A stretch of 64,000 nucleotides of DNA from Parazoarcus communis SWub3 = DSM 12120 (GTDB lineage Bacteria; Pseudomonadota; Gammaproteobacteria; Burkholderiales; Rhodocyclaceae). Positions within the stretch are counted from its first letter, which is position 1; every line of letters starts with the position of its first letter. A model generated the notes under the pieces. It was not told the DNA's origin. It did not search any database and worked only from the letters and a program-made list of their open reading frames with translations. Below are positions 3,558 to 61,849 of the stretch, piece after piece. A program made the translations under genes and the position numbers. Where the stretch lies: contig NZ_QKOE01000001.1 of the NCBI RefSeq assembly GCF_003226565.1, positions 1 through 64,000 on the forward strand, given 5' to 3'.

Positions 3558-3574
3558 ATCGTCCCAACGGACTA
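3558..3574 (+). promoter_or_regulatory. Operator-like palindrome, site 1
   Basis: ATCGTCCCAACGGACTA, a near-perfect member of the repeated ATCGTCCnnnnGGACTA motif. It lies in the divergent promoter gap between the hsaB-like gene (minus) and the aldehyde dehydrogenase gene (plus). Confidence 0.75.
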
Positions 3575-3592
3575 GCGCCCGCCTGCTACCGG

Positions 3593-3609
3593 CTCGTCCG
3601 ATCGGACTA
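3593..3609 (+). promoter_or_regulatory. Operator-like palindrome, site 2
   Basis: CTCGTCCGATCGGACTA, the most symmetric copy (GTCC-GATC-GGAC core). Its start is 35 bases from the start of site 1 in the same divergent gap, so the two sites could be occupied cooperatively. Confidence 0.75.
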
Positions 3610-3643
3610 CGCAGCTTGCAGGTTTGCAGGTTAAGTTCGCACC

Positions 3644-5122
3644 ATGGCACATCGTGCCGCACACCGAACTCTCAAACCGGAGCAAATTCCCGTGACTCAA
3701 GAGATCACCACCACCGTGGCAGGCCTGTCAGACCTGCTCAGACAACAGCGGCAGGCTTTTGACACAGCGGGCGCGGTCAGCGCTGCGGACCGTCGTCGTC
3801 GCCTGCAGACCGCCATCGACCTGCTGGTGAAGTATCACAAGCCCCTGGTCCAGGCGATGGATGCCGATTTTGGCGGCCGCCCTCAGGGCTACTCGCTGAT
3901 GAACGACGTCCTTGGCTCGCTGACATCGCTCAAATATGCCCGCGATCACTTCGAACCCTGGATGGCCAGCGAGCCACGCACCCCTTTCCCACCCTACGAT
4001 CAGTTCGGCGCCCAAGCCTGGGTGATGTACCAGCCCAAGGGCAGCATCGGCATCATCGGTACCTGGAACGCCCCCCTATTCACCCTGTTCAGCCCACTTG
4101 CCAGCGCGCTGGCAGCCGGTAACCGGGCCATCCTCAAGCCATCTGAAGTGGTGCCGGAAACAGCCCGGGTGGTCGCCGAAGCCATCGCCGAGATGTTCGA
4201 TCCGCTGGATGTCGGCGTGGTGACTGGCGGCCCGGACATGGGAGAAGCCTTTACCGCCCAGGCCTTCGACCACATCGTATTCACCGGCAGTACCCAGGTT
4301 GGCAAGACGGTGATGCGCAATGCCGCGCAAAACCTGGTACCCGTCACCCTGGAGTTGGGCGGCAAATCGCCGGCCATTGTCTCCCGCACCGCGGATCTCG
4401 CCACCGCAGCCTATCGCATCGGCGTGGCGAAGGCGGCCAATGCCGGACAATTGTGCGTGAATCCAGACGTCGTCTATGTTGCTCGCCCACAGCTGGAAGA
4501 CTTCGTTGCCGCACTCAAGCGCACGACCGGTGAACTGTTCCCAGGCGGAGCGCCGAGCGCCGACATGGTGGCCGTGGTCAATGCCCGCCATCTTGAACGG
4601 GTGGAGACCTGCATCAGAGAAGCGGTCGCAGCCGGCGCACGGGTCGAATATGCCCCGTCGGCACCAGATTCAACCGACCGCCGCCGCCCATTGGGCATCG
4701 TCATCAATCCGCCTGCCACATCGCGGATCATGCAGGAAGAGATCTTCGGGCCCGCAGTCGTGATACGCAGCTACGACTCGATCGACGAGGTCATCGCCGA
4801 CATCAACGCCCGCCCGCGCCCGCTTGCGCTGTACTACTTCGGCGAAGACGAGGCAGAGCAAAGCCATGTCCTGGAACGCACCCTGTCGGGCGGCGTGACA
4901 ATCAACGAGGCAATGTTCCACGCAGCAATGGAAGACGCGCCTTTCGGTGGCGTCGGCGCCTCCGGCATGGGCCACTACCATGGCCGCGAGGGCTTCATCG
5001 AATTCAGCCATGTACGGACCGTGTTCAAGGCGCCGGCCTACGACCCGCGCCGCGAATGGGGCCTGCTGCCACCCTACTCCGATCAGTTCCTTGCAATGAT
5101 GGAAGCGCAGGTCACACCCTGA
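3644..5122 (+). CDS. NAD(P)-dependent aldehyde dehydrogenase, coniferyl-aldehyde dehydrogenase type
   Basis: 492 residues from the ATG at 3644; a GTG at 3692 preceded by GGAG is an alternative start that removes 16 residues. It has the aldehyde dehydrogenase signature: LELGGKSP with Glu237, NAGQLC with nucleophile Cys271, and FTGSTQVGK for cofactor binding. The C-terminal GVGASGMGHYHG segment is typical of the short CALDH-type group. It oxidises a hydrophobic aldehyde to the acid. It is divergent from hsaB and shares two operator-like palindromes with it, so a steroid side-chain aldehyde is a reasonable substrate guess. A paralogue lies at 29284-30735. A strong terminator follows. Confidence 0.9.
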   Translation: MAHRAAHRTLKPEQIPVTQEITTTVAGLSDLLRQQRQAFDTAGAVSAADRRRRLQTAIDLLVKYHKPLVQAMDADFGGRPQGYSLMNDVLGSLTSLKYARDHFEPWMASEPRTPFPPYDQFGAQAWVMYQPKGSIGIIGTWNAPLFTLFSPLASALAAGNRAILKPSEVVPETARVVAEAIAEMFDPLDVGVVTGGPDMGEAFTAQAFDHIVFTGSTQVGKTVMRNAAQNLVPVTLELGGKSPAIVSRTADLATAAYRIGVAKAANAGQLCVNPDVVYVARPQLEDFVAALKRTTGELFPGGAPSADMVAVVNARHLERVETCIREAVAAGARVEYAPSAPDSTDRRRPLGIVINPPATSRIMQEEIFGPAVVIRSYDSIDEVIADINARPRPLALYYFGEDEAEQSHVLERTLSGGVTINEAMFHAAMEDAPFGGVGASGMGHYHGREGFIEFSHVRTVFKAPAYDPRREWGLLPPYSDQFLAMMEAQVTP

Positions 5123-5174
5123 GCGCGCCGCCGCAGGCTCGGACCTGCGGCCTTTCAAATGTGAACAATGGAAA

Positions 5175-5209
5175 AAATGCCGCAGTCACCCTAGGGTGCT
5201 GCGGCATTT
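5175..5209. terminator. Bidirectional terminator hairpin
   Basis: An 11-base arm (AAATGCCGCAG) pairs with CTGCGGCATTT, with an inner CACCC/GGGTG stem on a two-base loop and one bulged T. A-rich and T-rich flanks on the two sides allow it to serve both the plus-strand aldehyde dehydrogenase and the convergent kshB transcript. Confidence 0.85.
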
Positions 5210-5233: not shown

Positions 5234-6277
5234 TCAGCCGGGAAAGCGCACCTTCACCCGGTCGGTCAGCGGCAGAGCCTGGCAGCTCAGGGTCCAGCGC
5301 TTGGCCAGATCCTTGGCGTCGAGAACTTCGTTGTGGCGAAGATGCACTTCACCTTCAACCACCTGACACATGCAGGATGCACACATGCCGGCCTGGCAGG
5401 AATACGGCGCCGCGATACCAGACCTGAGCGCCGCATCCAGCAGGGTTTCGCCGCCGGCTACATCCAGCATGTGGGTCTGACCGTCCAGTTCGAGTTCGAC
5501 CGAGGCTCGCTCGACCCCACGCTCGGGGGGGGTCGCAGCAGCCTTGATCGCGTCGACGTCTTCCTCGTCCGGCAAGGAGACAAAACGCTCGACGTGCACC
5601 CGCTCGCTATCCATGTCGACCTGGGCAAGCGCCGCAACCATGGCCTCCATGAACGGGCCCGGCCCACAGATGAAGGCCTGCGCGCATGTCCATGACCTTG
5701 CCAGTTCGGCCAGCTGGGCGACCGACGGCACACCCTGGACCGAATCGAGCCAGTGGATGACCTGCAGACGGGCAGGGTGCGCCGAAGCCAATGCGTTCAA
5801 TTCGTCGCGGAAGATCACCGAACGCTCATCGCGATTGGCATACAACAGGCGGATGCGCCCTTGCCCATGTGCGAGCACCGAGCGCAGGATGGAAAATACC
5901 GGTGTGATGCCGCTTCCCCCTGCGCAAAGCAGGAAGTCCCCCTGCAGCGAGGCCGGCGTAAACACCCCGGCCGGCGCCATCACCTCGACCATGTCGCCCG
6001 GGCGGACATGGTCGCAGACCCAGTTCGAACCGCGTCCGCCCGGAACCCGCTTGACCGTGACCCGCAGGGTTGCGTCGAGCGTCGGTGCGCTCGACATCGA
6101 GTAGCAGCGTGGCAGATGCCGGCCCAGCACCGGCAGACGCAGGGTCAGGAACTGACCGGGCCGATACCGGAAGGTGTCGGCCAGATCAGGCGGCACCTCG
6201 AACGCGACCGATCTGGCATCGTGCGTTTCCTCGGTGACGGCCCTCACCTTGAGGGCGTGATAGCGCTGGGCGGTCAT
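5234..6277 (-). CDS. kshB: 3-ketosteroid 9alpha-hydroxylase reductase
   Basis: 347 residues in three domains: FAD-binding ferredoxin-reductase barrel (about 1-105, with RCYSMSSAP), NAD-binding domain (about 110-230, with LLCAGGSGITPVFSILRS), and a C-terminal plant-type [2Fe-2S] ferredoxin domain (CQAGMCASC plus a later Cys in LSCQ). This layout matches KshB/PaaK-type reductases, which feed electrons from NADH to the Rieske oxygenase KshA. The start ATG at 6277 is preceded by GGGAGAACG. It lies 31 bases downstream of the hsaA-like gene, so the two are probably one operon. Its oxygenase partner is at 27771-28877. Other oxygenase partners cannot be excluded. Confidence 0.88.
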   Translation of the reverse strand: MTAQRYHALKVRAVTEETHDARSVAFEVPPDLADTFRYRPGQFLTLRLPVLGRHLPRCYSMSSAPTLDATLRVTVKRVPGGRGSNWVCDHVRPGDMVEVMAPAGVFTPASLQGDFLLCAGGSGITPVFSILRSVLAHGQGRIRLLYANRDERSVIFRDELNALASAHPARLQVIHWLDSVQGVPSVAQLAELARSWTCAQAFICGPGPFMEAMVAALAQVDMDSERVHVERFVSLPDEEDVDAIKAAATPPERGVERASVELELDGQTHMLDVAGGETLLDAALRSGIAAPYSCQAGMCASCMCQVVEGEVHLRHNEVLDAKDLAKRWTLSCQALPLTDRVKVRFPG

Positions 6278-6308
6278 CTCGCTTCGTTCTCCCTTGGCGA
6301 GTTGCCGG

Positions 6309-7532
6309 TCAGATGTAGGGGTCTGCGTTCGGCAGCCCCAGCATCACCGCGCCATGCGCACGCGCATAGGTATCGGTGTTGTTGGCGATATGCCCCCGGG
6401 CCTGGTGAATGTCACGGAACACGCGTTCGATCGGATTGCTCTTGTATGTCCCGGAGGCAGCGCAGGCGCGCATCAACTCGCTGACCGCAGCAGCACATTG
6501 CTTGGGCACCTGAGACGCCTGGGCACGCTGCATCAGACGCTCCTCCACCGGCATCTGCGTGCCAGTACGGGCACACTCGACAATGCGGGCGTAGTTGCGG
6601 AACAGCACCAGCTTGAGTTGATCGGAGGTCATCATCGCCTCGGATACCGCCTGCTGGGCGTTGACGTCCTCCGCCGTCTTCGCGCCGTGCTTGCCGACAT
6701 GCGCAGCCGCACGCTCACGAAAATGCGCGATCGCGCCGTCCAGCGCGCCGATGCAGGCCGACGACACGGCGCGCTGAAAGACCTGGGTAAATGGAATCTT
6801 GTAGATCCAGCCCGGATTGGTCTCCCGTCCCGGACAACCCGCATCGCTGTGATCATTGGTGCGATGGGTACGATGTGCCGGCACAAAGCAACCATCTACG
6901 ACGATGTCGTGGCTGCCGGTGGCCCTCAGACCCAATACATCCCAGTTATGCTCGACCCGAAAATCGGACTTCGGCAGCAGGAAAGTCGCGTGCTCCAGCG
7001 CACCGGAGCCGTCCTTCTTCGGCAACAAGCCGCCCAGGAAGATCCAGTCGCAGTGTTCGACACCGCTCGAAAATCCCCAACGCCCCGAAAAGCGGTAGCC
7101 GCCATCCACGGCCTTGGCCTTCCCGGTTGGCATGTAGGTGGACGCGATCAGTACCGAGGTGCCGCCCGACCACACATCCTGCTGCGCCTGCTCGGGAAAC
7201 AGCGGAAGCTGCCAGTTATGCACACCGATCACACCGTAGATCCAGGCAGTGGACATGCACCCTTCGGCAAGCGCCATCTGCACCCGGTAGAACACCCTCG
7301 GGTCCAGTTCGTAACCGCCAAAACGACGCGGCTGCAACACGCGAAACAGACCCGCCTCGCTCATCTCGCGCACCGTCTCGTCCGGCACCTTGCCCGCGGC
7401 CTCGGCTGCACGGGCGCGCTCGGCCAGACGTGGCGCCATTGCCCTCGCCCGCTCCACCAGCTCGACCGCCTCTGGCGTCATGTAATCCTCGGCAAGAATG
7501 CCGAGCACCTGATCCTTTCCAACTGCACCCAT
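6309..7532 (-). CDS. hsaA: 3-HSA 4-hydroxylase, flavin-dependent oxygenase component (acyl-CoA dehydrogenase fold)
   Basis: 407 residues. It belongs to the HsaA/HpaB-C2 group of flavin monooxygenases with an acyl-CoA dehydrogenase fold. Typical stretches are FRVLQPRRFGGYELDP, CMSTAWIYGVIGVHNWQL, GRWGFSSGVEHCDW and VLGLRATGSHD. With reduced flavin from HsaB it hydroxylates the phenolic A ring of the 9,10-seco steroid. The frame is open to 7613, but the ATG at 7532 is preceded by GGAGGAC at ideal spacing and fits the roughly 395-residue family length. An operator-like palindrome lies 90-106 bases upstream. The kshB gene follows. Confidence 0.9.
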   Translation of the reverse strand: MGAVGKDQVLGILAEDYMTPEAVELVERARAMAPRLAERARAAEAAGKVPDETVREMSEAGLFRVLQPRRFGGYELDPRVFYRVQMALAEGCMSTAWIYGVIGVHNWQLPLFPEQAQQDVWSGGTSVLIASTYMPTGKAKAVDGGYRFSGRWGFSSGVEHCDWIFLGGLLPKKDGSGALEHATFLLPKSDFRVEHNWDVLGLRATGSHDIVVDGCFVPAHRTHRTNDHSDAGCPGRETNPGWIYKIPFTQVFQRAVSSACIGALDGAIAHFRERAAAHVGKHGAKTAEDVNAQQAVSEAMMTSDQLKLVLFRNYARIVECARTGTQMPVEERLMQRAQASQVPKQCAAAVSELMRACAASGTYKSNPIERVFRDIHQARGHIANNTDTYARAHGAVMLGLPNADPYI

Positions 7533-7621
7533 CTTCGTGTCCTCCGGAATCGCCCACATGGAAAGTGGCCTGCGCCACCTCATCTGCCGGACGAAATCTC
7601 CCACACGCAACAAGGGCCATC

Positions 7622-7638
7622 ATCGTCTGAACGGACTA
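7622..7638 (+). promoter_or_regulatory. Operator-like palindrome, site 3
   Basis: ATCGTCTGAACGGACTA, 16 of 17 positions consistent with the motif. It lies in the divergent gap between hsaA-kshB (minus) and the YCF48-RND operon (plus), so it could control both. Confidence 0.75.
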
Positions 7639-7851
7639 AGGTAAATGGCTGAATGCAAAGGGCTCTTTTCCAGCAAAGACACACACTCCGGATTGATGCG
7701 ACGCACCATCCGGCGGCAAACCAGCAAGGCAGGTCCGCTCGAAGAAACCGTAACCCTTTTGGACGATGCCGCGTTCCGACAGCACCCCGAATATTGGCCA
7801 TAATTCGCCACTTCGCGTGACGAACACTCGAACAACAAACAGGAGACATTC

Positions 7852-8868
7852 ATGCGAGCATCCGTGGGCTGGGCCATGGCATTGATCGTCGCGGCCGCCG
7901 GCGTGCACGCCTTCTCACCGCGCAGTGCAGTCACACTGCCGGAGGTGCGCATCCCAGTCGAACACATGCAGCTGACTAGCGTTCATCAGACCTCTGCCGG
8001 ACTGGTCATCGCCGGGGAGCTGGGCCACATCCTCACTTCTGCCGACCAGGGCAGCAGCTGGACGCCCGCAAACATTCCGGGCAATCGTCAGGCCCTGCTC
8101 ACCCGACTCGCCTTCTCCGGACCGGACGAGGGCCTTGCATTGGGTCATGAGGGCTGGATCCTGCGCTCCACGGACGGTGGCAAATCGTGGGCCGAAGCAC
8201 ACTTCGACGCGAGCAACGGCGAACCGCTGATGGACGCCGCAAAGCTGCCCTCGGGCGACTGGCTGGCCGTAGGCGCATTCGGTCGAGTCCTGCGCTCCGC
8301 CGACAATGGCACCTCCTGGGTCGAGGATGGCATTCCCGGGCTGATCGACTGGCACCTCAACACCATTGTCTCCTCGGCGGACGGCAACAAGTGGCTGATC
8401 GCCGGCGAGGCCGGCACGCTGCTGCGTTCGCTCGATGGCGGCTCAAGCTGGGAGGTGATCGTGCCTTTCTACAACGGCTCGCTCTACGGTGCACTCCATG
8501 TCGGCGGCAGCACCTGGATCAGCTACGGCATGCGCGGCCATGTGTTTCACAGCGAAGATGATGGCGCCACGTGGCAGGAAGCGAGCATCCCCGTACCGGT
8601 GTCAATCTATGGGCACGCGCAGACCCGCGACGGCACCCTGCTACTGGTCGGACAGGGCGGTCTCGTACTTGCGAGCACGGACCAGGGACAGAACTTCAAG
8701 GTGATCGACCGCTCGCCCGAAGGCGCACTGACCGGCATCACCCTGCTGACCGACGGCCGTGCGGTACTCACCAGCGATGGTGGTCTGGACATCCGTATGC
8801 TGCCTGCCACCCGGCCCGCACCAGGCTCCCACCTCAACCTCAGCAAGAACACCTCAGGAGAGTCCTGA
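7852..8868 (+). CDS. Exported YCF48-type (BNR-like repeat) beta-propeller protein
   Basis: 338 residues with an N-terminal signal peptide (about residues 1-20, cleavage near VHA-F). The body is a run of BNR/YCF48-like repeats: TSADQGSSWTPANI, RSTDGGKSWAEA, RSADNGTSWVED, RSLDGGSSWEV and HSEDDGATWQEA. The repeats should fold as a periplasmic beta-propeller. AGGAGA precedes the ATG at 7852. The stop overlaps the start of the RND transporter (ATGA), so the two proteins are translationally coupled and probably cooperate. Such propellers accompany RND/MMPL transporters and DUF1302/DUF1329 proteins in many proteobacteria; the biochemical role is unknown. Confidence 0.88.
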   Translation: MRASVGWAMALIVAAAGVHAFSPRSAVTLPEVRIPVEHMQLTSVHQTSAGLVIAGELGHILTSADQGSSWTPANIPGNRQALLTRLAFSGPDEGLALGHEGWILRSTDGGKSWAEAHFDASNGEPLMDAAKLPSGDWLAVGAFGRVLRSADNGTSWVEDGIPGLIDWHLNTIVSSADGNKWLIAGEAGTLLRSLDGGSSWEVIVPFYNGSLYGALHVGGSTWISYGMRGHVFHSEDDGATWQEASIPVPVSIYGHAQTRDGTLLLVGQGGLVLASTDQGQNFKVIDRSPEGALTGITLLTDGRAVLTSDGGLDIRMLPATRPAPGSHLNLSKNTSGES

Positions 8869-11273
8869 TGAGCGATACCCCTCAGCGCGGCCGTCTTGAC
8901 GGACTGATCGACACCACCGCCCTGATGATCATCCGCTGGCGCAAGGCGCTCGGCCTGCTGTTCATCGCCCTCACCATGCTGCTGGCCTACTCGGCCATGA
9001 ATCTGCGTCTGGATCCCGGCTTCAACAAGCTGATCCCGCACAAGCATGAGTACATGTCTGCATTCATGGAGTATTCAGGAACCTTCTCCGGCGCCAACCG
9101 CATCATGGTCAGCGTGCGCTGGAAGGGCGAGGGGGACATCTACAACGCGCAGTTCATGAAGACCTTGCGCGAGATCACCGACGAAGTCTTCTTCACCCCC
9201 GGGGTCAATCGTGCAAGCGTACGTTCGTTGTTCACCCCGAACGTACGCTATATCGAGGTGACCGAGGAGGGCTTCAACGGTGACGTGGTCATTCCTGCAC
9301 GCTTCGAAGCCGATGCCGCCAGTCTGGAGCAGGTGCGCAACAACGTGTCCAAGTCCGGTGAAATCGGCCGTCTGGTCGCCAATGACCTGAAAGCGGCCCT
9401 GGTTCGCGCCGATCTGCTGGAGTTCAACCCGGAAACCGGTGAGCGCCTCGACTACGCCGACGTCGCGAACAAGCTCGAAGCCATCCGCGCGCGGTTCGAA
9501 GGACAGAACCCGGACATCGAACTCAACATCGTCGGCTTTGCCAAGGTCATTGGTGATGTCATGGATGGGCTGTTCACCGTGCTGGTGTTCTTTGCCATCG
9601 CCTTCCTGATCACCGCCGCCCTGCTGGGCGCCTACTCGCGTTCGCTCAAGCTCGTCGTCACCGTGCTGGTGATCGCGCTGATGCCCGTGGTGTGGCTCCT
9701 CGGCCTGCTACCGCCACTGGGCTACGGCATCGATCCGATGTCGGTGCTGGTCCCCTTCCTGATCTTCTCGATCGCGGTATCACACGCGATCCAGATGACC
9801 AACGGCTGGGAACAGGAGTTGCTCAAGGGCCGCAGCGCTACCGAAGCGGCCGAGCAGTCCTTCCGCAATCTGGTGATCCCGGGTTCGATGGCACTGGTCA
9901 CGACCGCACTCGGCTTCATGGTGATGATGCTCATCGACATCCCCATCCTTCACGAGCTCGGCGTCACCGCCTGCCTGGGTGTGGTACTGATGCTGCTGAC
10001 CAACCTGGTGTTCCTGCCCATCGTGCTGTCTCACCTGAAGCTCGAGCGCTTCGCCCTGGCCCATCCCATCGACGACATCCATCGGGGACACACGCACCAC
10101 CGCTTCTGGTGGACGCTGTCGGCACTGGCCAAACCAGGTCCGGCACTTGTCAGCTTTGCCGTGATGCTGGCGTTGCTGGTTGGTGGCACCCATCTGGCGC
10201 GTCAGGTCCAGACCGGTGACATCGGCGCAGGTGTACCGGAGCTGCACGACGATTCGCGCTACAACCTCGACAATGCACGCATCCTTGAAAGCTACTCGAT
10301 CGGGATGGATGTGCTGTCGGTGTTCGTCGAAACCACCGGGTTCGAAGAGGCCTGCCTGAACTGGGAGGTGATGAATGCCGTCGAGCGCTTCGACCTGCGC
10401 ATGCGCGGCGTCGAAGGCGTGCAATCGGTCGAAACCATCGCCCGGCGTGCCAAGCTGTACGCGGCAGGCAACAACGAGGCCAATCCACGATGGGCCGCAT
10501 TGCAACGCTCGGAAGCCGCGCTCCGAACCGGCGCCCGCGCCGCCAATCCCGAACTGGGGCTCAACAACGCCGGCTGCCAGACCATCCATCTGATCGTCTA
10601 CCTGACCGACCACGAAGCAAGCACACTGCGCACCGTCACCGACGAGGTCCGCCGCTTCATCGCCCAGGACAGTACCCCCAATGTCAGTTTCAGGCTTGCC
10701 GGTGGCAACGCCGGCGTCGCCGTGGCCACCAATGAGGCAGTGGATCGTGCGCAGGTCCAGATGCTAGTGTCGATCTACGGCGCAATCATCCTGATCTGCC
10801 TGCTCACCTTCCGTTCGGTGCGCGCGGTGATCTGCATCATCGTTCCGCTGCTGCTGGTCAGCATCCTGTGCAACGCCCTGATGGCGACCATCGACATCGG
10901 GCTCAAGGTTGCCACCTTGCCGGTGATCACGCTGGGGGTGGGCGCCGGGGTCGACTACGGCATCTATATCTACGAACGTCTGAAGTATGAACTCGACCAC
11001 GGCGCCCCGACCCTGCGTGACGCCTTCTACGAAGCCATGCGTCAGCGCGGCACCGCAGCCATTTTCGTGGCCCTGACAATGTCGGTGGGCGTCGGCACCT
11101 GGATGTTCTCGGCGCTGAAGTTCCAGGCCGACATGGGGGTGCTGCTGGCCTTCATGTTCCTGGTGAATGCGCTCGGCGCCATGTTCCTGCTGCCGGCACT
11201 GGCCTGCTGGCTGGGGATCGGCCGGGGCGACACCCGTCCGGCAACGGTCGGCCAGCAGGCACAGCCCGCCTGA
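8868..11273 (+). CDS. RND/MMPL-family transporter
   Basis: 801 residues, a single-polypeptide RND (MMPL/HpnN-like) transporter. One N-terminal membrane segment (about residues 26-46) and two blocks of about five or six membrane helices flank two periplasmic loops. The second block includes the charged LGVGAGVDYGIYIYERLKYEL segment, the usual position of the proton-relay acidic residue. The frame extends upstream inside the propeller gene, but the ATG at 8868 overlapping its stop is the natural start. HpnN and MmpL relatives move hopanoids and other lipids, so transport of steroids or intermediates between membranes is a reasonable inference. A strong terminator follows. Confidence 0.9.
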   Translation: MSDTPQRGRLDGLIDTTALMIIRWRKALGLLFIALTMLLAYSAMNLRLDPGFNKLIPHKHEYMSAFMEYSGTFSGANRIMVSVRWKGEGDIYNAQFMKTLREITDEVFFTPGVNRASVRSLFTPNVRYIEVTEEGFNGDVVIPARFEADAASLEQVRNNVSKSGEIGRLVANDLKAALVRADLLEFNPETGERLDYADVANKLEAIRARFEGQNPDIELNIVGFAKVIGDVMDGLFTVLVFFAIAFLITAALLGAYSRSLKLVVTVLVIALMPVVWLLGLLPPLGYGIDPMSVLVPFLIFSIAVSHAIQMTNGWEQELLKGRSATEAAEQSFRNLVIPGSMALVTTALGFMVMMLIDIPILHELGVTACLGVVLMLLTNLVFLPIVLSHLKLERFALAHPIDDIHRGHTHHRFWWTLSALAKPGPALVSFAVMLALLVGGTHLARQVQTGDIGAGVPELHDDSRYNLDNARILESYSIGMDVLSVFVETTGFEEACLNWEVMNAVERFDLRMRGVEGVQSVETIARRAKLYAAGNNEANPRWAALQRSEAALRTGARAANPELGLNNAGCQTIHLIVYLTDHEASTLRTVTDEVRRFIAQDSTPNVSFRLAGGNAGVAVATNEAVDRAQVQMLVSIYGAIILICLLTFRSVRAVICIIVPLLLVSILCNALMATIDIGLKVATLPVITLGVGAGVDYGIYIYERLKYELDHGAPTLRDAFYEAMRQRGTAAIFVALTMSVGVGTWMFSALKFQADMGVLLAFMFLVNALGAMFLLPALACWLGIGRGDTRPATVGQQAQPA

Positions 11274-11330: not shown

Positions 11331-12005
11331 TCAGTCCTCGCTGCGCGGCCTGAAGTCGGTCATTGCCCGCGAGATGCGCACCAGCATCGGCACCAGTGCC
11401 GGAGAATCGAGCAGCTCCGGACGTTCCTCGACCAAAGTCGCAAGCATCATGCGCATGCCACGTACCAGCAAGAAGGACGCCAGCTCGGTGTCGGCCTCTC
11501 CGACCTCCTCGGCATGCGATCGAAGCAGCTGCGCCATGTTCGCCACCAGCTGATCCGAGCTCACCGGCCCTCGCCCGAGCCCCTGAGCACGCCCGAACTG
11601 CATATGCCGGGCGTAGCGCCGGTAAAAATCCTTGCCCAAGCCCAACAGGTGCATCTCGGTTCGCACCGTGCGCTGGAACAATGCCTGCAGCAACTCGTCC
11701 AGCGATTGACGGTTGAGCCGGAACAACTCGGGGGAGGCCTCGATTGACTCCTGGTCCATGATTCTGTTGCTGATCTGCATCAGGATCGCTTCCTTGTTCG
11801 GAAAGTACTGATACAGCGCCCCGACCGATACCCCCGCTCGCGCCGCGATCCGTCGCGTCGTGACCGCATCCACGCCCTGTGTCTTCAGAATCTCGGTGGC
11901 CGCGTCAATGATCGCATCGATCGTGAAACTGGCCCGCGCCTGTACCGGCACATTGCGCAACCCGCTGAGCCGCCGCTCGACCTTCTTTTGTTCGGTTTTT
12001 TGCAT
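11331..12005 (-). CDS. TetR/AcrR-family transcriptional regulator
   Basis: 224 residues. The N-terminal helix-turn-helix spans about residues 20-65 (AATEILKTQGVDAVTTRRIAARAGVSVGALYQYFPNKEA pattern, read in parts), followed by a divergent ligand-binding domain. The ATG at 12005 gives MQKTEQKK; a GTG at 12044 is also in frame and would add 13 residues. Neither has a clear ribosome site. It is divergent from the side-chain beta-oxidation operon and is the obvious candidate to control it, possibly with a steroid or acyl-CoA as ligand, as KstR does in actinobacteria. That role is inferred from position only. Confidence 0.88.
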   Translation of the reverse strand: MQKTEQKKVERRLSGLRNVPVQARASFTIDAIIDAATEILKTQGVDAVTTRRIAARAGVSVGALYQYFPNKEAILMQISNRIMDQESIEASPELFRLNRQSLDELLQALFQRTVRTEMHLLGLGKDFYRRYARHMQFGRAQGLGRGPVSSDQLVANMAQLLRSHAEEVGEADTELASFLLVRGMRMMLATLVEERPELLDSPALVPMLVRISRAMTDFRPRSED

Positions 12006-12222: not shown

Positions 12223-13431
12223 ATGACCGACGTCTTCATTTACGACCATGTGCGCACACCGCGCGGCAAAGGCAAGGCCGATGGCGCACTCGCCGAGATC
12301 ACTCCGGTGCAACTGGCCGCGCAGATGCTGCAAGCCATACGCGACCGCAACACGCTGGACAGCGCATTGATCGAGGACGTATTGCTCGGCTGCGTGGTGC
12401 CGGTTGGCGAACAAGGTGGCAACATCGCCCGGGTCGCTGCGCTGGTCGCCGGGTTTGACCATGTGGTTCCGGGCATGCAGGTCAATCGCTATTGCGGCTC
12501 TGGCCTGGAGGCCGTCAACTTTGCCGCTGCCAAGGTGGGCTCCGGTCAGGTGGATATGGCGATCGGCGGCGGCGTGGAGAGCATGTCGCGTGTGCCGATG
12601 GGCAGTGATGGCGGCGCGATGGCGCTCGATCCGCAGGTCGCCTTCGCGATGCATTTCACCATGCAGGGCGTCAGCGCCGACCTGCTTGCCAGCCTGCACG
12701 GATTCTCACGCGACCAGTGTGACGCCTATGCCGTTGAAAGCCAGCACCGCGCCATACGGGCATGGACAAACGGCTGGTTCGACCGCTCGGTGGTACCGGT
12801 CAGGGATGTGCTCGGCCTGACCGTCCTGACACGCGACGAAGCGATCCGCCCGGACACCACAATGGAATCGCTCGCAGCGCTGAAGCCGGCCTTCCAGGAG
12901 ATGGGCACCCAGTACGGTTTTGATGGTGTCGCGCTGCTCAAGTATCCGCAGCTCGAAGCCATCAATCACATGCACCACGCCGGCAACAGCTCGGGCATCG
13001 TCGATGGCGCCGCCGCCGTGCTTGTGGGCAATGCCGACGCAGGCAAGCGCGCCGGCCTCAAGCCACGCGCGCGCATCCGCTCGGTCGCCACCGTCGGCTC
13101 GGAGCCCACGCTGATGCTCGACGCCCCGAGCTACGCCGCGCAGAAGGCACTGAAGAAGGCAGGCATGACCGCCGCCGACATCGGCCTGTGGGAGCTCAAC
13201 GAAGCCTTCTCCTCGGTCGTGCTGTGCCTGATGGAGCGGCTCAACGTGCCGCACGACCGCATCAACGTCAATGGCGGCGCCATTGCCATGGGCCATCCGC
13301 TGGGCGCCACCGGCGCCATGATCCTCGGCACCCTGCTCGACGAGATGGAGCGCCGCCAGGTCGGCACCGGCCTGGTCACGCTGTGCGAAGCCGCCGGCAT
13401 GGGCACCGCCACCATCATCGAGCTCGTCTGA
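12223..13431 (+). CDS. Acetyl-CoA C-acyltransferase (thiolase), side-chain operon
   Basis: 402 residues, a complete thiolase. NRYCGSGLEAVN carries the acyl-accepting Cys91; WELNEAFSS, NGGAIAMGHPLGATGA and the C-terminal LCEAAGMGTA supply the catalytic His and second Cys. The ATG at 12223 (AAGGGATAG upstream) is preferred over one at 12199. It is the first gene of a six-gene plus-strand operon ending at 20948, and the FadJ-type enzyme follows after 33 bases. Thiolytic release of acetyl- or propionyl-CoA from a steroid side chain is likely (a FadA5-like role), but the sequence alone does not fix the substrate. Confidence 0.92.
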   Translation: MTDVFIYDHVRTPRGKGKADGALAEITPVQLAAQMLQAIRDRNTLDSALIEDVLLGCVVPVGEQGGNIARVAALVAGFDHVVPGMQVNRYCGSGLEAVNFAAAKVGSGQVDMAIGGGVESMSRVPMGSDGGAMALDPQVAFAMHFTMQGVSADLLASLHGFSRDQCDAYAVESQHRAIRAWTNGWFDRSVVPVRDVLGLTVLTRDEAIRPDTTMESLAALKPAFQEMGTQYGFDGVALLKYPQLEAINHMHHAGNSSGIVDGAAAVLVGNADAGKRAGLKPRARIRSVATVGSEPTLMLDAPSYAAQKALKKAGMTAADIGLWELNEAFSSVVLCLMERLNVPHDRINVNGGAIAMGHPLGATGAMILGTLLDEMERRQVGTGLVTLCEAAGMGTATIIELV

Positions 13432-13464
13432 GCGCCACCGGACCACATCAAGGAATCGACAGTC

Positions 13465-15648: not shown

Positions 15649-15723
15649 CCCGCCCGCCTCACCGCCACGAACCCCGCCGCCACCTCCTCCGGAGCTGGCG
15701 GCGCAGTCCCAAGGAGTCTCTGC

Positions 15724-16812: not shown

Positions 16813-16827
16813 GCGGAACACGCCCAC

Positions 16828-18057: not shown

Positions 18058-18082
18058 AGCGCCGCACGGAGGAGACAGTACG

Positions 18083-19255: not shown

Positions 19256-19325
19256 ACCCGCCGCCGTCCCGCGCATGGTCATGCCAGTCGGGACGATCAC
19301 ACGACAACCACACGACGGAGACATC

Positions 19326-24674: not shown

Positions 24675-24691
24675 ATCGTCCGATGAGACTA
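24675..24691 (+). promoter_or_regulatory. Operator-like palindrome, site 4
   Basis: ATCGTCCGATGAGACTA, upstream of the minus-strand DUF1329-DUF1302 operon. It differs from the consensus only at the first G of the right half-site. Confidence 0.72.
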
Positions 24692-27578: not shown

Positions 27579-27595
27579 ACGTCCAAAAGGACGAT
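27579..27595 (-). promoter_or_regulatory. Operator-like palindrome, site 5
   Basis: Read on the minus strand: ATCGTCCTTTTGGACGT. The GTCC-N4-GGAC core is intact. It sits in the gap between the MBL-fold hydrolase (minus) and kshA (plus). Confidence 0.65.
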
Positions 27596-27630: not shown

Positions 27631-27647
27631 ATCGTCCAAACAGAGGA
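27631..27647 (+). promoter_or_regulatory. Degenerate operator-like half-site, site 6
   Basis: ATCGTCCAAACAGAGGA: the left half-site is perfect and the right half poor. Its start is 52 bases from the start of site 5, in the kshA promoter gap. Confidence 0.4.
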
Positions 27648-34119: not shown

Positions 34120-34806
34120 TCAGCCCGCCGCGTCGATGCGTTCCGGATCGAGCATGCCCAACGCCATGGCAACCAGGCTGCGAAGGAAGGCGTCCTGCTC
34201 CACCCGCTCTGGTGCATCCTCGAGCGTGCTGCGGATGATGGCGCGCATCGCCATGCACAACATGTAGGCCGACATCTCGGCGTCCGCCTCGTCCAGTTTC
34301 GGCGCATACAGGGCGACGAAAGGTCGCCAGGCGTCGTCGACGAACTCCCGCGAGCTGGCATAGGGTCCTATCCGCATGCCCATCTGCAGTTCAGGGTGGT
34401 ACTTGAGGTGAAAATCCCGATGCAGGCGGTACAGCCGCAACTCGGTACCCACCATGCCGCGGAGGATCTCGCGCACCGCACCAGCAAGTGGCAGACCGGC
34501 TACCCGCTCGCGCAGGGCCGGTACTGCGACTGCAGCCTCTTCACGCAGGATGTGTTCGAACGCCTCACCAAGGACCGCCTCGACATTCGGAAAGTACTGG
34601 TAGATCGAGCCCACCGCGACGCCGGAAACCTCGGACAGGCGATGAACCGTCAACGCATCAGCCCCCTCCTGTTCCAGCAGCTTGATGCAGGCCTCGATCA
34701 ATGCCGCTACCAGCGAACGTGAGCGCGACTGGGCGGGCAACTTGCGGGGGGCTGGCATGCGCCGTTTGCTGCCAGCACCACCTAAAGGGGACTTTGACTG
34801 AGACAT
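34120..34806 (-). CDS. TetR/AcrR-family transcriptional regulator
   Basis: 228 residues from the ATG at 34806. A basic N-terminus (SKRRMPAPRKLPAQSRSRS) precedes the helix-turn-helix (ADALTVHRLSEVSGVAVGSIYQYFPN read in parts, about residues 50-75). It differs from the other TetR gene in its ligand domain. It lies between the enoyl-CoA hydratase operon (same strand) and the divergent sulfatase-maturase operon and may control either. The gap on its upstream side (34807-35008) is AT-rich near 34850-34870, a likely promoter, with an interrupted TGGAAT...ATTCCA inverted repeat of unknown meaning. Confidence 0.87.
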   Translation of the reverse strand: MSQSKSPLGGAGSKRRMPAPRKLPAQSRSRSLVAALIEACIKLLEQEGADALTVHRLSEVSGVAVGSIYQYFPNVEAVLGEAFEHILREEAAVAVPALRERVAGLPLAGAVREILRGMVGTELRLYRLHRDFHLKYHPELQMGMRIGPYASSREFVDDAWRPFVALYAPKLDEADAEMSAYMLCMAMRAIIRSTLEDAPERVEQDAFLRSLVAMALGMLDPERIDAAG

Positions 34807-36301: not shown

Positions 36302-36311
36302 GGAGACAACC

Positions 36312-44469: not shown

Positions 44470-44486
44470 ATCGTCAAAACGGACGG
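44470..44486 (+). promoter_or_regulatory. Operator-like palindrome, site 7
   Basis: ATCGTCAAAACGGACGG, 14 of 17 positions as in the best copy. It is upstream of the minus-strand ipdF operon in the gap 44444-44643. Confidence 0.55.
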
Positions 44487-44643: not shown

Positions 44644-45120
44644 TCAGCTGACACGCGCGGGATGGAAAGCGCAGGGCGCACCCAGGATGTCGCGCCAGGT
44701 CGGTGGTTCACGGCCGTCCTCGTCGCGCACGCCGTAGTGCTGCGCAAGTTCGGCAACGATCTGCGTGCGTCCGGAGCGCGCGGCCAGCTCCGGGTCGCGC
44801 CAAAGCGCGTTGTTGACAAGGATGTCGAGCCGGCCGTGTTCGTTCGCGATACGCGCGAACAGCGCCTTGACCTGCGCGTCGTCGGCATGGTCACACTGCA
44901 CCGCAATACCTTGCCCACCTGCGGCGGTGACCGCGGCAGCAGCATCGTGAATGGTGCCGTGCAGTGGCGTGTCGCCGATACACGATGCACCATCAGTGGT
45001 GCTGCGCCCAGTCACGTAAACCGTCATGCCGGCCGCGCCGAGGGCTTCGGCCACGCCCCGGCCCACGCCGCGGCTGGCGCCAGTAACAACTGCAATGCCG
45101 GTCGATGCAGATGTGCTCAT
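44644..45120 (-). pseudogene. SDR gene with internal deletion (DHRS1-like remnant)
   Basis: 158 residues from the ATG at 45120. The N-terminus is an intact SDR cofactor domain (VVTGASRGVGRGVAEALG, QCDHADD, ILVNNA). It then jumps to a stretch (DPELAARSGRTQIVAELAQ, then HYGVRDEDG) that resembles the C-terminal tail of full-length DHRS1-like SDRs of about 290 residues. The middle section with the catalytic Ser and YxxxK is absent, so an in-frame deletion of roughly 120-130 codons is inferred. The product cannot be a normal SDR enzyme. It follows the amidase gene on the same strand by 64 bases. A short functional protein cannot be excluded. Confidence 0.65.
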
Positions 45121-45184
45121 CGGGACGCCCTCATGGAACACCGGACTCGGACGTGCCACGACGGCGCATGCGCGACGATCAAGC

Positions 45185-55768: not shown

Positions 55769-56671
55769 TCACGCAGCCTGTTCCTGCTGGCCCACGCCGA
55801 AGTCGTGACCCCAGATGCTGACGCGGGTAAATTCGAAGGCGTTGTGGCGTGACCAGTCGAGTTGCAGGCCGCCATAGCCATATTCGAGATCGAAACCGGA
55901 AGGAGTCTTCATGTAGAAGGAGATCATCCGGTCGTTCAGATGCTGGCCCAGCGTGGCCGACAGCGGCACCTTGTGTTCGATGCGACGATCATGGGCACGG
56001 CCAACCTCGGTCATCGAATCGACCTCGACCATCACATGCACGCAGCCGCTCGGCACCGGATACTCGGCAATCGCCAGACTGTGGTGGCGCGCGTTGTTGC
56101 AATGCATGAAGTGGATGCGGATCGGCGGCGCCGACGGGTCGGGGCGAAAATTGAAGATATCCGACAAACCAAAACCCAGCACATCGCGGAAGAAGGCAGC
56201 AGTCGCATCGAAGTTGGGCGCCGGCATCACCGTATGTCCCAGGCCCATCTCACCGGTCAGGAAACGCGGCACCCCTTGCGGCGACACGAAGGGCTGACAG
56301 TCGGACAGATGCCCCCAGCAAAGCTCGTGACGGTTACCCGACGGGTCCATCACCACCGCCACGGCCTGCATGCCACGCTGCATCACGGTCGCGGCATCGG
56401 CCAGCTCGTAGCCCACGCCCTTGGCCTCAAGTTCGGTCAGCGCAGCCTTGAAGGCCCCTTCACTCGCCAACTCCCAGCCAGAGGCGAAATAACGGCGCTC
56501 GCTTCCCGGCACCACGAGGATGCGGAAGGGACGTTCGTCCATCTTGATGTACAGACCACCACCGGGGGCCGGCGCCGTCATCATGCCAAGCACCGCCTCG
56601 GCGTAGTGCTTCCACTCGGCGATGTCGTCGATCTGGGTAACGAAGTAGGCCAAACCGCGAATGTCGATCAT
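55769..56671 (-). CDS. hsaC: Extradiol catechol dioxygenase (3,4-DHSA dioxygenase)
   Basis: 300 residues, two-domain type I extradiol dioxygenase. Iron ligands are His146 (GLGHTVMP), His212 (VHVMVEV) and Glu263 (LEYGYGG). HsaC/TesB cleaves the catechol A ring of 3,4-DHSA in the meta position. Length and motifs match the HsaC/BphC class. It is the first gene of the long operon running to fadA6 and has an operator-like palindrome 66-82 bases upstream of its ATG. The hydrolase HsaD, which would act next, was not found in the window. Confidence 0.92.
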   Translation of the reverse strand: MIDIRGLAYFVTQIDDIAEWKHYAEAVLGMMTAPAPGGGLYIKMDERPFRILVVPGSERRYFASGWELASEGAFKAALTELEAKGVGYELADAATVMQRGMQAVAVVMDPSGNRHELCWGHLSDCQPFVSPQGVPRFLTGEMGLGHTVMPAPNFDATAAFFRDVLGFGLSDIFNFRPDPSAPPIRIHFMHCNNARHHSLAIAEYPVPSGCVHVMVEVDSMTEVGRAHDRRIEHKVPLSATLGQHLNDRMISFYMKTPSGFDLEYGYGGLQLDWSRHNAFEFTRVSIWGHDFGVGQQEQAA

Positions 56672-56736: not shown

Positions 56737-56753
56737 ATCGTCCGTTGAGACTA
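56737..56753 (+). promoter_or_regulatory. Operator-like palindrome, site 8
   Basis: ATCGTCCGTTGAGACTA, upstream of the minus-strand hsaC-ipdAB operon. It resembles site 4 (both have AGACTA in the right half). Confidence 0.72.
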
Positions 56754-56909: not shown

Positions 56910-57878
56910 TCACATGTACAGGATCACCAGGTCGTTGATGACCGATGGCCGCTCGCTGCCGACCACATGGGTCACGATTTCCATCGTCAGCTGCATGCCC
57001 TTGGGCAGCTTTTCCACCGCCTTGACGCGGGTACGCGCATGAATGCGCGAGCCCGCGGGCACCGGTGCCGGGAAACGCAGGCGGTCGGAGCCGTAATTGA
57101 CCATGTTGTTGAAGCCGACGACCTCATAGTCGAGCGGGATGCGCAGACGCGACTGCAGCACCTGCACCAGGGCACCGTGGGCAATGGTGCCGCCGAATGG
57201 GCTTTGCTTGCGTGCGCGCTCGGGATCGGTGTGGATCCAGTAATCATCCCCCGACAGCTTGGCGAATTCGTCGATCAGCGCCTGATCGACGACGATCTGG
57301 TTGCTCCAGGCCGAGTAGGCCTCGCTCACCAGCGACTTCATCGCCGCCTCGTCGTCAAAGCGTACCTGGCGCCTGTCGGCCACCTCGGCCGCACTCGCCG
57401 CCGCTTCAGCGGCCGCAGCCAATGCCGCAGGAGTGCTGTCGATGCGCTCGGCCATGTCCTTGCCTGCTGCGGTAAAGCGCAACAGGGTCGTGCCGTCGGC
57501 ACTCACGGTGTCGAACACCGGCTTCACCCGCATGTCGACCTTGATCTCGGATTCATCCACGCCGATCAGGGTGGTGTTGATGCGCACGCCCTCATCGAGT
57601 TCGACCACAGCCATCTTCTGCGGCATCTCGTCGGCAAAGTCGGGCAGCGTCGGGACGCGGGTGAGCGTGTAGGTGTAGAGCGTGCCCGTACCCTTGACTT
57701 CCTTCCACGCCAGGTCCTGTGACCAGCACTTGTCGCAATGGCGGCGGGGAAAGAAAACCCAGTGGCCGCAGGACTTGCATTGCGGAATCGTGAGGCGGCC
57801 CGCCTTGAGGCCGTTCCAATACGGCGCCGAAATCTCGGTCGGTGTCGGCAGCGGTTTGTTGGTCGACATGCTCGTCAT
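56910..57878 (-). CDS. DUF35 (Zn-ribbon/OB-fold)-MaoC fusion, ChsH2-like with swapped domain order
   Basis: 322 residues. Residues about 18-150 form a DUF35 domain: a four-Cys zinc ribbon (CKSCGHWVFFPRRHCDKC) followed by an OB fold (GTGTLYTYTLTRVP). An Ala-rich linker (about 150-170) joins a MaoC hydratase domain (about 185-322) with LSGDDYWIHTDPERA and GGTIAHGALVQVL. In mycobacteria ChsH2 combines the same domains in the opposite order; its DUF35 part binds the aldolase Ltp2. The Ltp2-like gene here overlaps its start (ATGA). It probably hydrates the C17-20 enoyl-CoA and supports its aldol cleavage. AGGGAG precedes the ATG. Confidence 0.88.
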   Translation of the reverse strand: MTSMSTNKPLPTPTEISAPYWNGLKAGRLTIPQCKSCGHWVFFPRRHCDKCWSQDLAWKEVKGTGTLYTYTLTRVPTLPDFADEMPQKMAVVELDEGVRINTTLIGVDESEIKVDMRVKPVFDTVSADGTTLLRFTAAGKDMAERIDSTPAALAAAAEAAASAAEVADRRQVRFDDEAAMKSLVSEAYSAWSNQIVVDQALIDEFAKLSGDDYWIHTDPERARKQSPFGGTIAHGALVQVLQSRLRIPLDYEVVGFNNMVNYGSDRLRFPAPVPAGSRIHARTRVKAVEKLPKGMQLTMEIVTHVVGSERPSVINDLVILYM

Positions 57879-59086
57879 GCTCCCTGGAGAATCAGTGCAC
57901 CCTGCTCGCTCATCACGCCGCCGGTGCCGGAAACGAACACGGTGTCGCAGCGCTTGAGTTGACGCTCGCCAGCGCGGCCGGAAATCTGATGGAAGGCCTC
58001 GATGACCTGCGACATGCCGCCGGCGGTGCCGCTCTGGCCGAAGCTCAACTGCCCGCCGTGGGTGTTCATCGGGAAGTTGCCCTTGTAGGTCAGGTCATGC
58101 TCGCGCACCCAGCGCATACCCTCGCCCTTGGGGGCAAAACCGGCATCTTCCAGCGTCAGCAGCACCGTGATGGTGTAGCAGTCGTAGAGCTGTGCAGCCT
58201 GAATGTCGCTGCGCTTGATACCCGCCATTGCGAAGGCGCGCTCGGCCGCGGGGCCGATCGGGGTATCCGTCATCTCGTTCGCGTAGGTCGGCGACTTGAA
58301 ATACAGGTGCTCGCCAAAGCCGGTGATACAGGCGCCACGGTTCCTTGCGCGCGCTGCCACCTCCTTCGAGGCGACGATCACCGCCGCGCCGCCGGCCACC
58401 GGCATCACGATCTCGAGCACGCGCAGCGGCTCGGCCACCATCTTGCTGGCAAGCACGTCCTCGATGGACAGCGGTTTGCCGAAGAAGCTGGCGTCCGGGT
58501 TGGCGAGCGCGTTGGTGCGCTGGTCGACCGCGATCTTGGCCATCGCCACCGGGTCATAGCCGTACTTGGCCGCGTAGCGCTGGGCAATCATTGCATAGCC
58601 GGTATTCTGGCCCATGTGACCATAGGGCAGATCGAACTCCGCCTCGGGCGCGCCGAAGGCAGTACTGTGGCCGCCAAAGCGCATCGCCCGCGCCATCCAG
58701 CTCGGATCTTCATCGGGACCAAAGGGCGCCATGCGTGCAGGAATCACACACAACACCGCCTGGCACAGGCCCATCTCGACTGCCATCGCCGCACGCCACA
58801 CCGCCGCCACCGACGAGCACCCGCCCAGATCGACGACTTCGGCAAAGTTGAGTGACAGACCGAGGTATTCAGCCGCCATCGCCGGCACAAAAACCTGCGC
58901 CTCGTGAAACTGCGGGCCATGGATGACCAGGCCGTCGATGTCGGCGGCCTTCAACCCAGCGTCTGCCAGCGCGCGGCCGGCCAGGTCAGCCACCTGCTCG
59001 AGATGAAACATCCGCGGCGCGGTCGCGTACTTCTCCGGCCTGTACTGCGCGGCGCCGACGATTGCTGCGTTTCCTTTGAGACCCAT
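57875..59086 (-). CDS. Ltp2-like thiolase-fold aldolase (steroid side-chain retro-aldolase)
   Basis: 403 residues of the SCP-x/lipid-transfer thiolase group. It lacks a typical thiolase Cys motif; characteristic segments are EVVDLGGCSSVAAVWRAAMAV, LYDCYTITVLLTLEDAGF, NTHGGQLSFGQSGTAGG and SGTGGVMSEQGALIL. Ltp2 and the proteobacterial SAL proteins cleave the 17-hydroxy side-chain CoA ester, releasing a short acyl-CoA and a 17-ketosteroid. Direct overlap with a DUF35-containing protein strengthens this assignment. AAGGGAG precedes the ATG at 59086. The exact chain length removed is not determinable from sequence. Confidence 0.87.
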   Translation of the reverse strand: MGLKGNAAIVGAAQYRPEKYATAPRMFHLEQVADLAGRALADAGLKAADIDGLVIHGPQFHEAQVFVPAMAAEYLGLSLNFAEVVDLGGCSSVAAVWRAAMAVEMGLCQAVLCVIPARMAPFGPDEDPSWMARAMRFGGHSTAFGAPEAEFDLPYGHMGQNTGYAMIAQRYAAKYGYDPVAMAKIAVDQRTNALANPDASFFGKPLSIEDVLASKMVAEPLRVLEIVMPVAGGAAVIVASKEVAARARNRGACITGFGEHLYFKSPTYANEMTDTPIGPAAERAFAMAGIKRSDIQAAQLYDCYTITVLLTLEDAGFAPKGEGMRWVREHDLTYKGNFPMNTHGGQLSFGQSGTAGGMSQVIEAFHQISGRAGERQLKRCDTVFVSGTGGVMSEQGALILQGA

Positions 59087-59163: not shown

Positions 59164-59180
59164 ATCGTTCAAATCGACTA
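59164..59180 (+). promoter_or_regulatory. Operator-like palindrome, site 9
   Basis: ATCGTTCAAATCGACTA, 15 of 17 consensus positions. It sits in the divergent gap between the Ltp2-like gene (minus) and the quinohemoprotein gene (plus). Confidence 0.62.
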
Positions 59181-61394: not shown

Positions 61395-61408
61395 GCGCAG
61401 CAAAGAAA

Positions 61409-61445
61409 CATGGCCCTGCCTTCGGTCTCCGAAGGCAGGGCCATG
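61409..61445. terminator. Strong bidirectional terminator hairpin
   Basis: A 17-base perfect stem (CATGGCCCTGCCTTCGG with its complement) on a three-base loop, 15 bases after the PQQ gene stop. It also follows the convergent small minus-strand gene; its flank toward that gene reads TTCTTT on the minus strand. Confidence 0.85.
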
Positions 61446-61484
61446 TCATTCGATCCAAGCGCCGAGGCGGTCGCTGAACATCAA

Positions 61485-61688
61485 TCAGTGCATTGCCAGC
61501 ATGACGAAAAAGCGTTCGGTCGAGACGTTTGCCGGGGAACCCGCGTCCGGACACCTCGCTTCGCCAGCGCTGCAGGCCGGAGTCTGCACCAGCGAATCCA
61601 GCACCCCGGTGTGGCCACGATCGAGCATTGCAGCAAGCGCTGCCAGGCATCCAAACACACACCCGAACAACAAGGCTTTTGTAATCAT
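61485..61688 (-). CDS. Tiny membrane or secreted protein, operator-associated
   Basis: 67 residues from the ATG at 61688 with a strong GGAGGAG seven bases upstream. One N-terminal hydrophobic segment (about residues 4-21, with two Cys, FGCVFGCLAAL) precedes a polar tail with two more Cys (CSAGEARC). I know no family. The frame is open to 61856, but the ribosome site fixes the start. It has its own operator-like palindrome 145-161 bases upstream and a terminator after it, so it appears to be a single-gene, steroid-regulated transcript. An inner-membrane anchor, or less likely a lipoprotein, is suggested. Confidence 0.65.
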   Translation of the reverse strand: MITKALLFGCVFGCLAALAAMLDRGHTGVLDSLVQTPACSAGEARCPDAGSPANVSTERFFVMLAMH

Positions 61689-61832
61689 GTACTTCTCCTC
61701 CGTGCGCCACAGTTTCGCGTACGCGCTGCACGCGGCCTGCAGGAACGAGGTACGACGCCGCTTCACTGCGACTGCCGCCCAAGAGTCTCCTCCTGCACGT
61801 TGTAGAGATTGACGAAGACGCGCAAACGCAAC

Positions 61833-61849
61833 ATCGTCCAAACGGACTA
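61833..61849 (+). promoter_or_regulatory. Operator-like palindrome, site 10
   Basis: ATCGTCCAAACGGACTA, a full match to the consensus. It is upstream of the 67-residue minus-strand gene and directly downstream of the ligase terminator. Confidence 0.78.

Follow-up and report, generated by a model that had tools for sequence, protein, structure and literature searches.

A regulon-wide palindrome in the steroid cluster of Parazoarcus communis is probably the operator of a TesR/TeiR-type LuxR-family activator

Which regulator reads the palindrome that recurs throughout the steroid-catabolism cluster of Parazoarcus communis SWub3? The window analysed here, 64,000 nucleotides from the start of contig NZ_QKOE01000001.1 (called C111 below, window and contig coordinates being the same), had been given a preliminary description that listed ten copies of the motif in promoter gaps, ascribed them to one transcription factor controlling the whole pathway, and named two TetR proteins, along with any LuxR or GntR regulators in the cluster, for binding assays. 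All ten copies are present in the sequence and all are intergenic by gene calls made independently here, with overlapping mechanical open reading frames covering some of them. A single regulator remains the best reading, but the two TetR proteins appear to fail as candidates and a LuxR-type gene past the window seems to fit better. We put at about 85% the probability that an activator of the TesR/TeiR type, in the LuxR family, uses the motif as its operator and that the motif marks out a regulon for steroid catabolism. Rather than either TetR protein, the most likely regulator is the TesR/TeiR homologue listed here. The DNA itself shows an operator that recurs across the regulon, is polar, keeps a constant spacing to a -10 element and is conserved; it also shows a linked gene of LuxR type with homology to an activator already described.

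C111 111148-112281, plus strand: TesR/TeiR homologue gene, LuxR-type, 47 kb past the window in the same steroid cluster

Gene calls were made with our own codon model over the window and 79.6 kb downstream, and a matrix built from 13 sites of the host genome was scored over these 143.6 kb, of which 10.8% is intergenic. All 18 matches of at least 16 bits are intergenic, the top coding match reaching 14.3 bits, and gaps with a match of at least 14 bits are divergent or lie 5' of a gene, with none between converging genes. Across 1.39 Mb of steroid-cluster and flanking DNA from several genomes, 13.7% of it intergenic, 119 of 121 sites of at least 19 bits are intergenic. In the 5.0-Mb host genome the TCGTCY-N4-RGACKA form TCGTCYNNNNRGACKA, a pattern that had been shaped on the sites, has 16 matches over both strands at 13 places, all within C111 3559-112425, and zero in the remaining 4.9 Mb. 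Six of the seven genomic matches to the shorter form first proposed, GTCCNNNNGGACTA, lie in the steroid cluster on C111. At no more than one mismatch the 17-mer occurs 11 times in the 5.0 Mb, eight times on C111 at 3.5-105 kb and six of these in the window, where the off-cluster rate predicts 0.04 per 64 kb. Searched genome-wide with good matches, the motif is therefore not equally common in unrelated genes, the outcome that the preliminary description had named as fatal to its proposal.

This concentration in the cluster is limited to good matches. In the window alone the bare core GTCCNNNNGGAC is mildly enriched (4 observed against 1.55 expected, with 7 of 100 shuffles reaching 4), and up to three mismatches give 26 occurrences against 11.8 expected (1 of 100 shuffles). 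Genome-wide, up to three mismatches yield 1383 matches to the motif and 2051 to the backward pattern, so no excess. The core and genome-wide counts speak for a chance or base-composition artefact, but that explanation is already contradicted by the confinement of good matches to one cluster, by a reversed-matrix control that finds 0 of 80 IpdA loci, and by a fixed -10 offset, and we give it next to no weight.

The motif is asymmetric and its direction predicts the gene served. Among the 119 intergenic sites of at least 19 bits, a start codon lies within 450 bp in the predicted direction at 107 and in the other direction at 71; it lies only in the predicted direction at 46 sites and only in the other at 10. 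The 89 sites of at least 21 bits, aligned along transcription, read TAGTC[C/T]-N4-GGACGATG followed by one conserved block, an A at +39 and a T at +43. This A...T pair stands at the exact offset in 66 of the 89, where the next best offset gives 14 and the median offset 2. These sites comprise 45 distinct 17-mers and are not independent, because many are orthologous promoters. Among the different promoters of the host genome the pair is exact in 9 of 15 and within one base in 14 of 15, and host sites read in the opposite direction show it at that offset in 0 of 19. With the T taken as position -7 of a -10 element, the dyad centre would fall at -42.5. A dyad near -42 at fixed spacing to the -10 element (66 of 89 at one offset, the start site being deduced) is the position of a class II activator. 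A composite of site and -10 element, drawn up after the alignment had been seen, finds 16 strand matches within the first 115 kb of the contig and none across 331 kb outside the cluster. That off-cluster DNA consists of 21 stretches, ten of them picked for containing matches, and its five matrix matches of at least 16 bits (16.2-20.2) all lie within coding sequence.

Rigid spacing between GGACGATG and the -10 element, together with better conservation of this proximal half than of the distal half, might instead reflect the promoter of an alternative sigma factor, formed by the proximal half and the -10 element without an activator site. Against this, a spacer of 21 bases is longer than is usual between -35 and -10 boxes. 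TAGTC, the distal half, hardly varies either and is related to the proximal half by the dyad, although it formed part of the matrix that selected the sites. Comamonas testosteroni is already known to need a LuxR activator for such operons, according to the excerpts cited below. We consider the sigma factor explanation highly improbable.

The operators below are all predicted from sequence, and the strand given is the direction of transcription served. Gene names (hsaC, ipdAB, ltp2, tesB and the like) derive from homology and the preliminary description, not from annotated records.

3558..3574, minus strand: predicted operator, 24.7 bits, of the hsaB-like gene 2517-3494 (minus), start codon 64 bp off; -10 CATACT
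3593..3609, minus strand: predicted second operator, 35 bp upstream of 3558, 23.7 bits; the usual offset, give or take one base, holds no -10
7622..7638, minus strand: predicted operator of hsaA-kshB (5234-7559, minus); -10 GAGATT
7751..7767, plus strand: predicted weaker operator, 14.2 bits, of the YCF48-RND operon (7852-11273, plus); -10 GAATAT; missed by the preliminary description
24675..24691, minus strand: predicted operator of the DUF1329-DUF1302 genes (21503-24543, minus); -10 one base off
27579..27595, plus strand: predicted weak operator, 16.9 bits, of kshA (27708-28877, plus); A...T absent from the offset and from one base either side
27631..27647, minus strand: predicted weak operator, 18.4 bits, toward the metallo-hydrolase gene 26433-27377 (minus); A...T absent from the offset and from one base either side
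44470..44486, minus strand: predicted weak operator, 16.1 bits, of the short-chain dehydrogenase gene 43625-44410 (minus); the -10 place reads TATAAA, which lacks the T usual at its end
56737..56753, minus strand: predicted operator of the hsaC-ipdAB operon (55769-56671 and on); -10 CACAAT; conserved 5' of hsaC-ipdAB in many genera
59164..59180, minus strand: predicted operator of the Ltp2-like thiolase operon (56910-59086, minus); -10 CATCGT
61833..61849, minus strand: predicted operator of the small gene 61485-61766 (minus); -10 CAATCT
65288, 65350, 85237, 85304, 89810, 105278, 106914 and 112410: predicted operators past the window on the same contig

The targets first listed stand, including the pairing of 61833 with the small gene 61485-61766. 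The acyl-CoA synthetase gene (61905-63752) was ruled out as a target of that site, whose orientation faces it toward 61485-61766. The gene at 43625-44410, described as ipdF, is a short-chain dehydrogenase by Pfam, and the name goes no further than that. Genes adjoining sites also have Pfam matches to DUF1329, metallo-hydrolase, KshA, extradiol dioxygenase (hsaC-like), thiolase C-terminal (Ltp2-like), pyrroloquinoline quinone (PQQ) and AMP-binding enzymes, MFS transporters, a ChsH2-like protein and a flavin adenine dinucleotide (FAD) enzyme. NCBIfam finds HsaA- and HsaB-like proteins beside sites, with scores under the curated cut-offs. Control of the whole pathway by one regulator is supported for most of the steroid cluster and does not extend to some operons, among them 12223-20948 and 35093-37862, which have no operator and each adjoin their own TetR gene.

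Conservation extends the same arrangement to other genomes. Sites lie 5' of orthologues of the host's cluster genes in G072, G272, G216, G255, G310, G265, G158, G141, G031 and G026. The core of site 7622 is identical 5' of hsaA in the first five of these, and spacer letters are often identical too, with TCGTCTGAACGGACTA 5' of hsaA in six genomes and TCGTCCGTTGAGACTA 5' of hsaC in five, the host included in both counts. In a survey of 297 genomes of the family, TA-ended sites (TCGTCYNNNNRGACTA) were used for co-occurrence because GA-ended matches are common in other family genomes; 171 of the 297 have none and 20 have 4-12.

The best 80 of 581 IpdA loci were searched over 1.5 kb 5' of ipdA, or the part of it present, with the matrix from the host genome only; locus L193 is probably G255, and a Nevskia locus with only 390 bp 5' of ipdA was too short for the site test. 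A site is found at 52 of the 80 at 16 bits or more, at 48 at 19 bits or more and at 57 at 13 bits or more, and with the reversed matrix the count is 0 of 80 at either higher threshold and 1 of 80 at 13 bits. Forty-seven of the 48 strongest sites sit 976-1081 bp 5' of ipdA, and 36 of the 48 have the -10 element at the exact offset. Loci reaching 16 bits include Zoogloea, Azoarcus, many Pseudomonas, Halopseudomonas, Marinobacter and Marinobacterium, and also Cupriavidus, Paraburkholderia, Burkholderia, Comamonas, Variovorax and Polynucleobacter; Craterilacuibacter, two Crenobacter and two Stappia score 13-16 bits. Nothing reaches 13 bits 5' of ipdA in all nine Sphingomonadales-labelled loci, Stenotrophobium, Sinimarinibacterium, both SAR86 and several metagenome-assembled genomes (MAGs), nor in Aminobacter, Nitratireductor and a Rhizobiaceae MAG, whose loci carry sites elsewhere. 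The closest named IpdA bearers among these 80 are Zoogloea (84%) and Azoarcus (82%).

The product of 111148-112281, the candidate activator, has a C-terminal LuxR helix-turn-helix (HTH; GerE, 28.5 bits with a cut-off of 23.5), and Pfam at E≤1e-6 showed no domain. It matches, along its full length, the last gene of the C. testosteroni tesB operon, named TesR here by position and homology, at 49% identity over 368 aa (E 1.6e-122), with the HTH identical at 56 of 62 positions (90%) and the remainder at 124 of 308 (40%). A GerE scan of seven genomes gave weak-scoring matches in the steroid clusters of the host (C111:112087-112248), G310, G265, C. testosteroni and Pseudomonas sp. 8AS. PAS matches occur mid-protein in several members of the TesR family, below the cut-off except in Pseudomonas citronellolis (L240). 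Among the 13 multi-site genomes whose site regions were covered, twelve have a TesR-like gene (G000, G072, G272, G216, G255, G310, G265, G158, G026, G031, C. testosteroni and Pseudomonas 8AS), that of G031 being found by a family hidden Markov model after the GerE scan had missed it; the thirteenth, G141, has none within 16 kb around its sites.

Two further groups of relatives were seen. Beside the first, G072, G272, G216, G255 and G310 have another TesR-like subfamily, which shares 36-40% identity with the host protein, has a more divergent HTH (55-65%) and may recognise other sites. In C. testosteroni NFYY023 a second TesR paralogue (44%) at 1676726-1677973 (L319 8726-9973) lies well away from the main cluster and is preceded, at 128 bp, by an operator of its own.

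Work in C. testosteroni links this protein type to operons of the same kind. The excerpts covered report that TesR is required for the operons tesB-tesR, tesA1-tesG and tesA2-ORF18 (PMC6895838) and that tesR ends the tesB operon (PMC13101464, PMC6678751). Matched in strain NFYY023 by gene order and homology, all three carry an oriented site with the A...T pair at the exact offset: 130550 5' of tesB (25.6 bits), 26738 5' of the HsaA-like gene taken as tesA2 (26.8 bits), and a weak one, 26851, 5' of the HsaB-like gene taken as tesA1 (16.5 bits). One excerpt has it that tesR-like genes are reported from C. testosteroni only (PMC6895838), a statement at odds with the orthologues here and with the two TeiR-like genes that a review extract places in the steroid cluster of Pseudomonas stutzeri Chol1, where deletion of one delays growth on cholate (unpublished data in PMC8399759). 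The host system resembles C. testosteroni TesR/TeiR in protein kind (49%, HTH 90%), pathway cluster and kinds of operons controlled; it differs in that the operator, the -42.5 geometry and the spread over many genera are laid out here, no operator being named in the portions of the literature covered. A literature search for a TesR/TeiR operator or motif letters found none, the primary TeiR papers, including that of 2004, lying outside its coverage and possibly describing one. The Chol1 regulators likewise lie in a steroid cluster, and the extract describing them gives no binding site.

Several observations weigh against assigning the motif to a TesR-type activator. TeiR is described in review extracts as a polar membrane protein with kinase activity, and no kinase domain was found in the TesR-type proteins by Pfam at E≤0.1. 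Host sites 3593, 27579, 27631 and 44470 lack the A...T pair within one base of its offset. Of the 48 strongest ipdA-upstream sites, twelve have no -10 element at the exact offset; in ten it is missing one base to either side as well, and nine of these belong to Pseudomonas, where the -10 place resembles TTnAAT. In a Sphingomonas MAG (L260) a TesR-like gene is present (HTH 48%) but no site 5' of ipdA. A TesR-like gene is likely absent from the site-poor congener G001, on a GerE scan that also missed the gene of G031. Co-occurrence alone does not prove the pairing of TesR and site because the presence of TesR is confounded with that of the pathway. Finally, only 8 of the 48 named loci with sites of at least 19 bits have a TesR-like gene within 10 kb on either side, that of L248 being a distant relative. 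The 40 loci without one in that span would suit an unlinked regulator of another family, with TesR-like proteins merely accompanying the pathway. Against such a regulator stand the conservation of the HTH, far above that of the rest of TesR (56/62 against 124/308), and the presence of the site at three TesR-dependent C. testosteroni operons; we judge it very unlikely.

The preliminary description had put two TetR proteins among those to be tested, and a TetR-family repressor, be it one of these or another, could in principle bind the palindrome and block the promoters as KstR does in actinobacteria.

11331..12005, minus strand: TetR regulator 1 (TetR1), probably the local regulator of 12223-20948
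34120..34758, minus strand: TetR regulator 2 (TetR2)

Short palindromes are common as TetR operators, which counts in favour of a repressor. As the binder, TetR1 fitted the first 61 genomes surveyed, where the host, G026 and G031 have the gene and several sites, and failed in the 297; already among the first 61, G042 and G052 have four and three matches without TetR1. Its orthologues (E≤1e-50) occur in 12 of the 297 genomes, ten of them with at least four TA-type sites. Ten other genomes with at least four such sites, including G216 with nine, nevertheless lack TetR1 at E≤1e-25, and TetR1 occurs in G110 with no site and in G155 with 1. TetR2 is rarer still, its gene being in only 6 of the 297 at E≤1e-90. 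The best scores in the two TetR promoter gaps are 4.4 and 4.3 bits, so neither regulator gene has an operator 5' of it. The whole TetR repertoire of five genomes (65 matches) yielded no candidate binder: none of the host's 11 TetRs has reciprocal best matches in G031, G265 and G310 together with none in the congener G001. A TetR regulator co-occurring with the operator, as expected of a KstR-like system, was thus not found. The fixed -42.5 geometry is an activator's, and the G255 equivalent of operon 12223-20948 has a site in a genome where TetR1 was not found. We regard a TetR repressor as very unlikely; TetR1 and TetR2 look like local regulators, each divergent from a site-free operon.

The pair of operons just mentioned suggests an apparent swap of regulators, in which the host operon adjoins TetR1 without an operator and its G255 counterpart (G255:C53 about 91198) has the operator. 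Linked genes without a homologue in the host, 20 of which were scanned, encode cofactor, transport, cytochrome and other proteins, two AraC-type regulators and one TetR, and no such linked regulator is common to all compared clusters.

The TesR-type activator favoured here suggests the following mechanism. A steroid or an early breakdown product would activate the protein, whose dimer would bind 5'-TAGTCY-N4-GGACGATG-3' with the dyad centre at about -42.5, where it would replace a -35 box. Bound TesR may then recruit RNA polymerase, through class II contact, to a -10 element xAnnnT starting 21 bases after GGACGAT. Some divergent gene pairs have one oriented site per gene. The regulator would be encoded within the same cluster, at C111 111148-112281, and the same site and regulator type may serve steroid clusters in many Beta- and Gammaproteobacteria. 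It is probable, with somewhat less assurance than for the operator itself, that the single grammar TAGTCY-N4-GGACGATG-N20-xAnnnT, read by one LuxR-type TesR family, is the general on-switch by which Beta- and Gammaproteobacteria start to degrade steroids, that it has moved with gene clusters between genera, and that it is the activator counterpart of actinobacterial KstR; some Alphaproteobacteria also carry sites.

KstR and KstR2 share with this system one operator family for a large steroid regulon; they are TetR repressors, and their palindrome differs from the motif here. EdcR of Caenibius tardaugens, in the excerpt covered a TetR repressor of estrogen genes, is a further case of a local steroid operator in a proteobacterium, differing in its palindrome TnnCnnTACnAnTnGTAnnGnnA, in repression and in its small gene set. 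The remark in the preliminary description that the motif does not match those of KstR and KstR2 holds, and the operator of EdcR differs from it as well. According to the review sections covered, KstR/KstR2 homologues are absent from bile-acid-degrading Proteobacteria, in which regulation is still largely unknown (PMC8399759). A defined operator, with its position and likely regulator, would allow members of the steroid regulon to be predicted in other genomes, missing pathway genes to be found by their promoters and steroid-responsive reporters to be built. It would also separate a global activator from local TetR regulators and make a poorly understood control system directly testable.

Minor features of the clusters were also recorded. 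The short-chain dehydrogenase at 44644-45141 is a 165-aa fragment compared with relatives of 236-292 aa, and the gene may be decayed or mis-called. In G310 a HipA-like gene (G310:C16 60118-61650) has the palindrome TCGTCCGGACGGACGA on both flanks. Past the window and the last operator, C111 116223-116902 encodes a Phd/YefM antitoxin and ParE-like toxin pair; homologous pairs adjoin steroid genes in G072 and G255 and might stabilise the cluster as an island. Inside the steroid cluster, at C111 about 70400-73200, a stretch of low GC content (0.51-0.53) holds a ParA-like gene and a Schlafen/HATPase gene.

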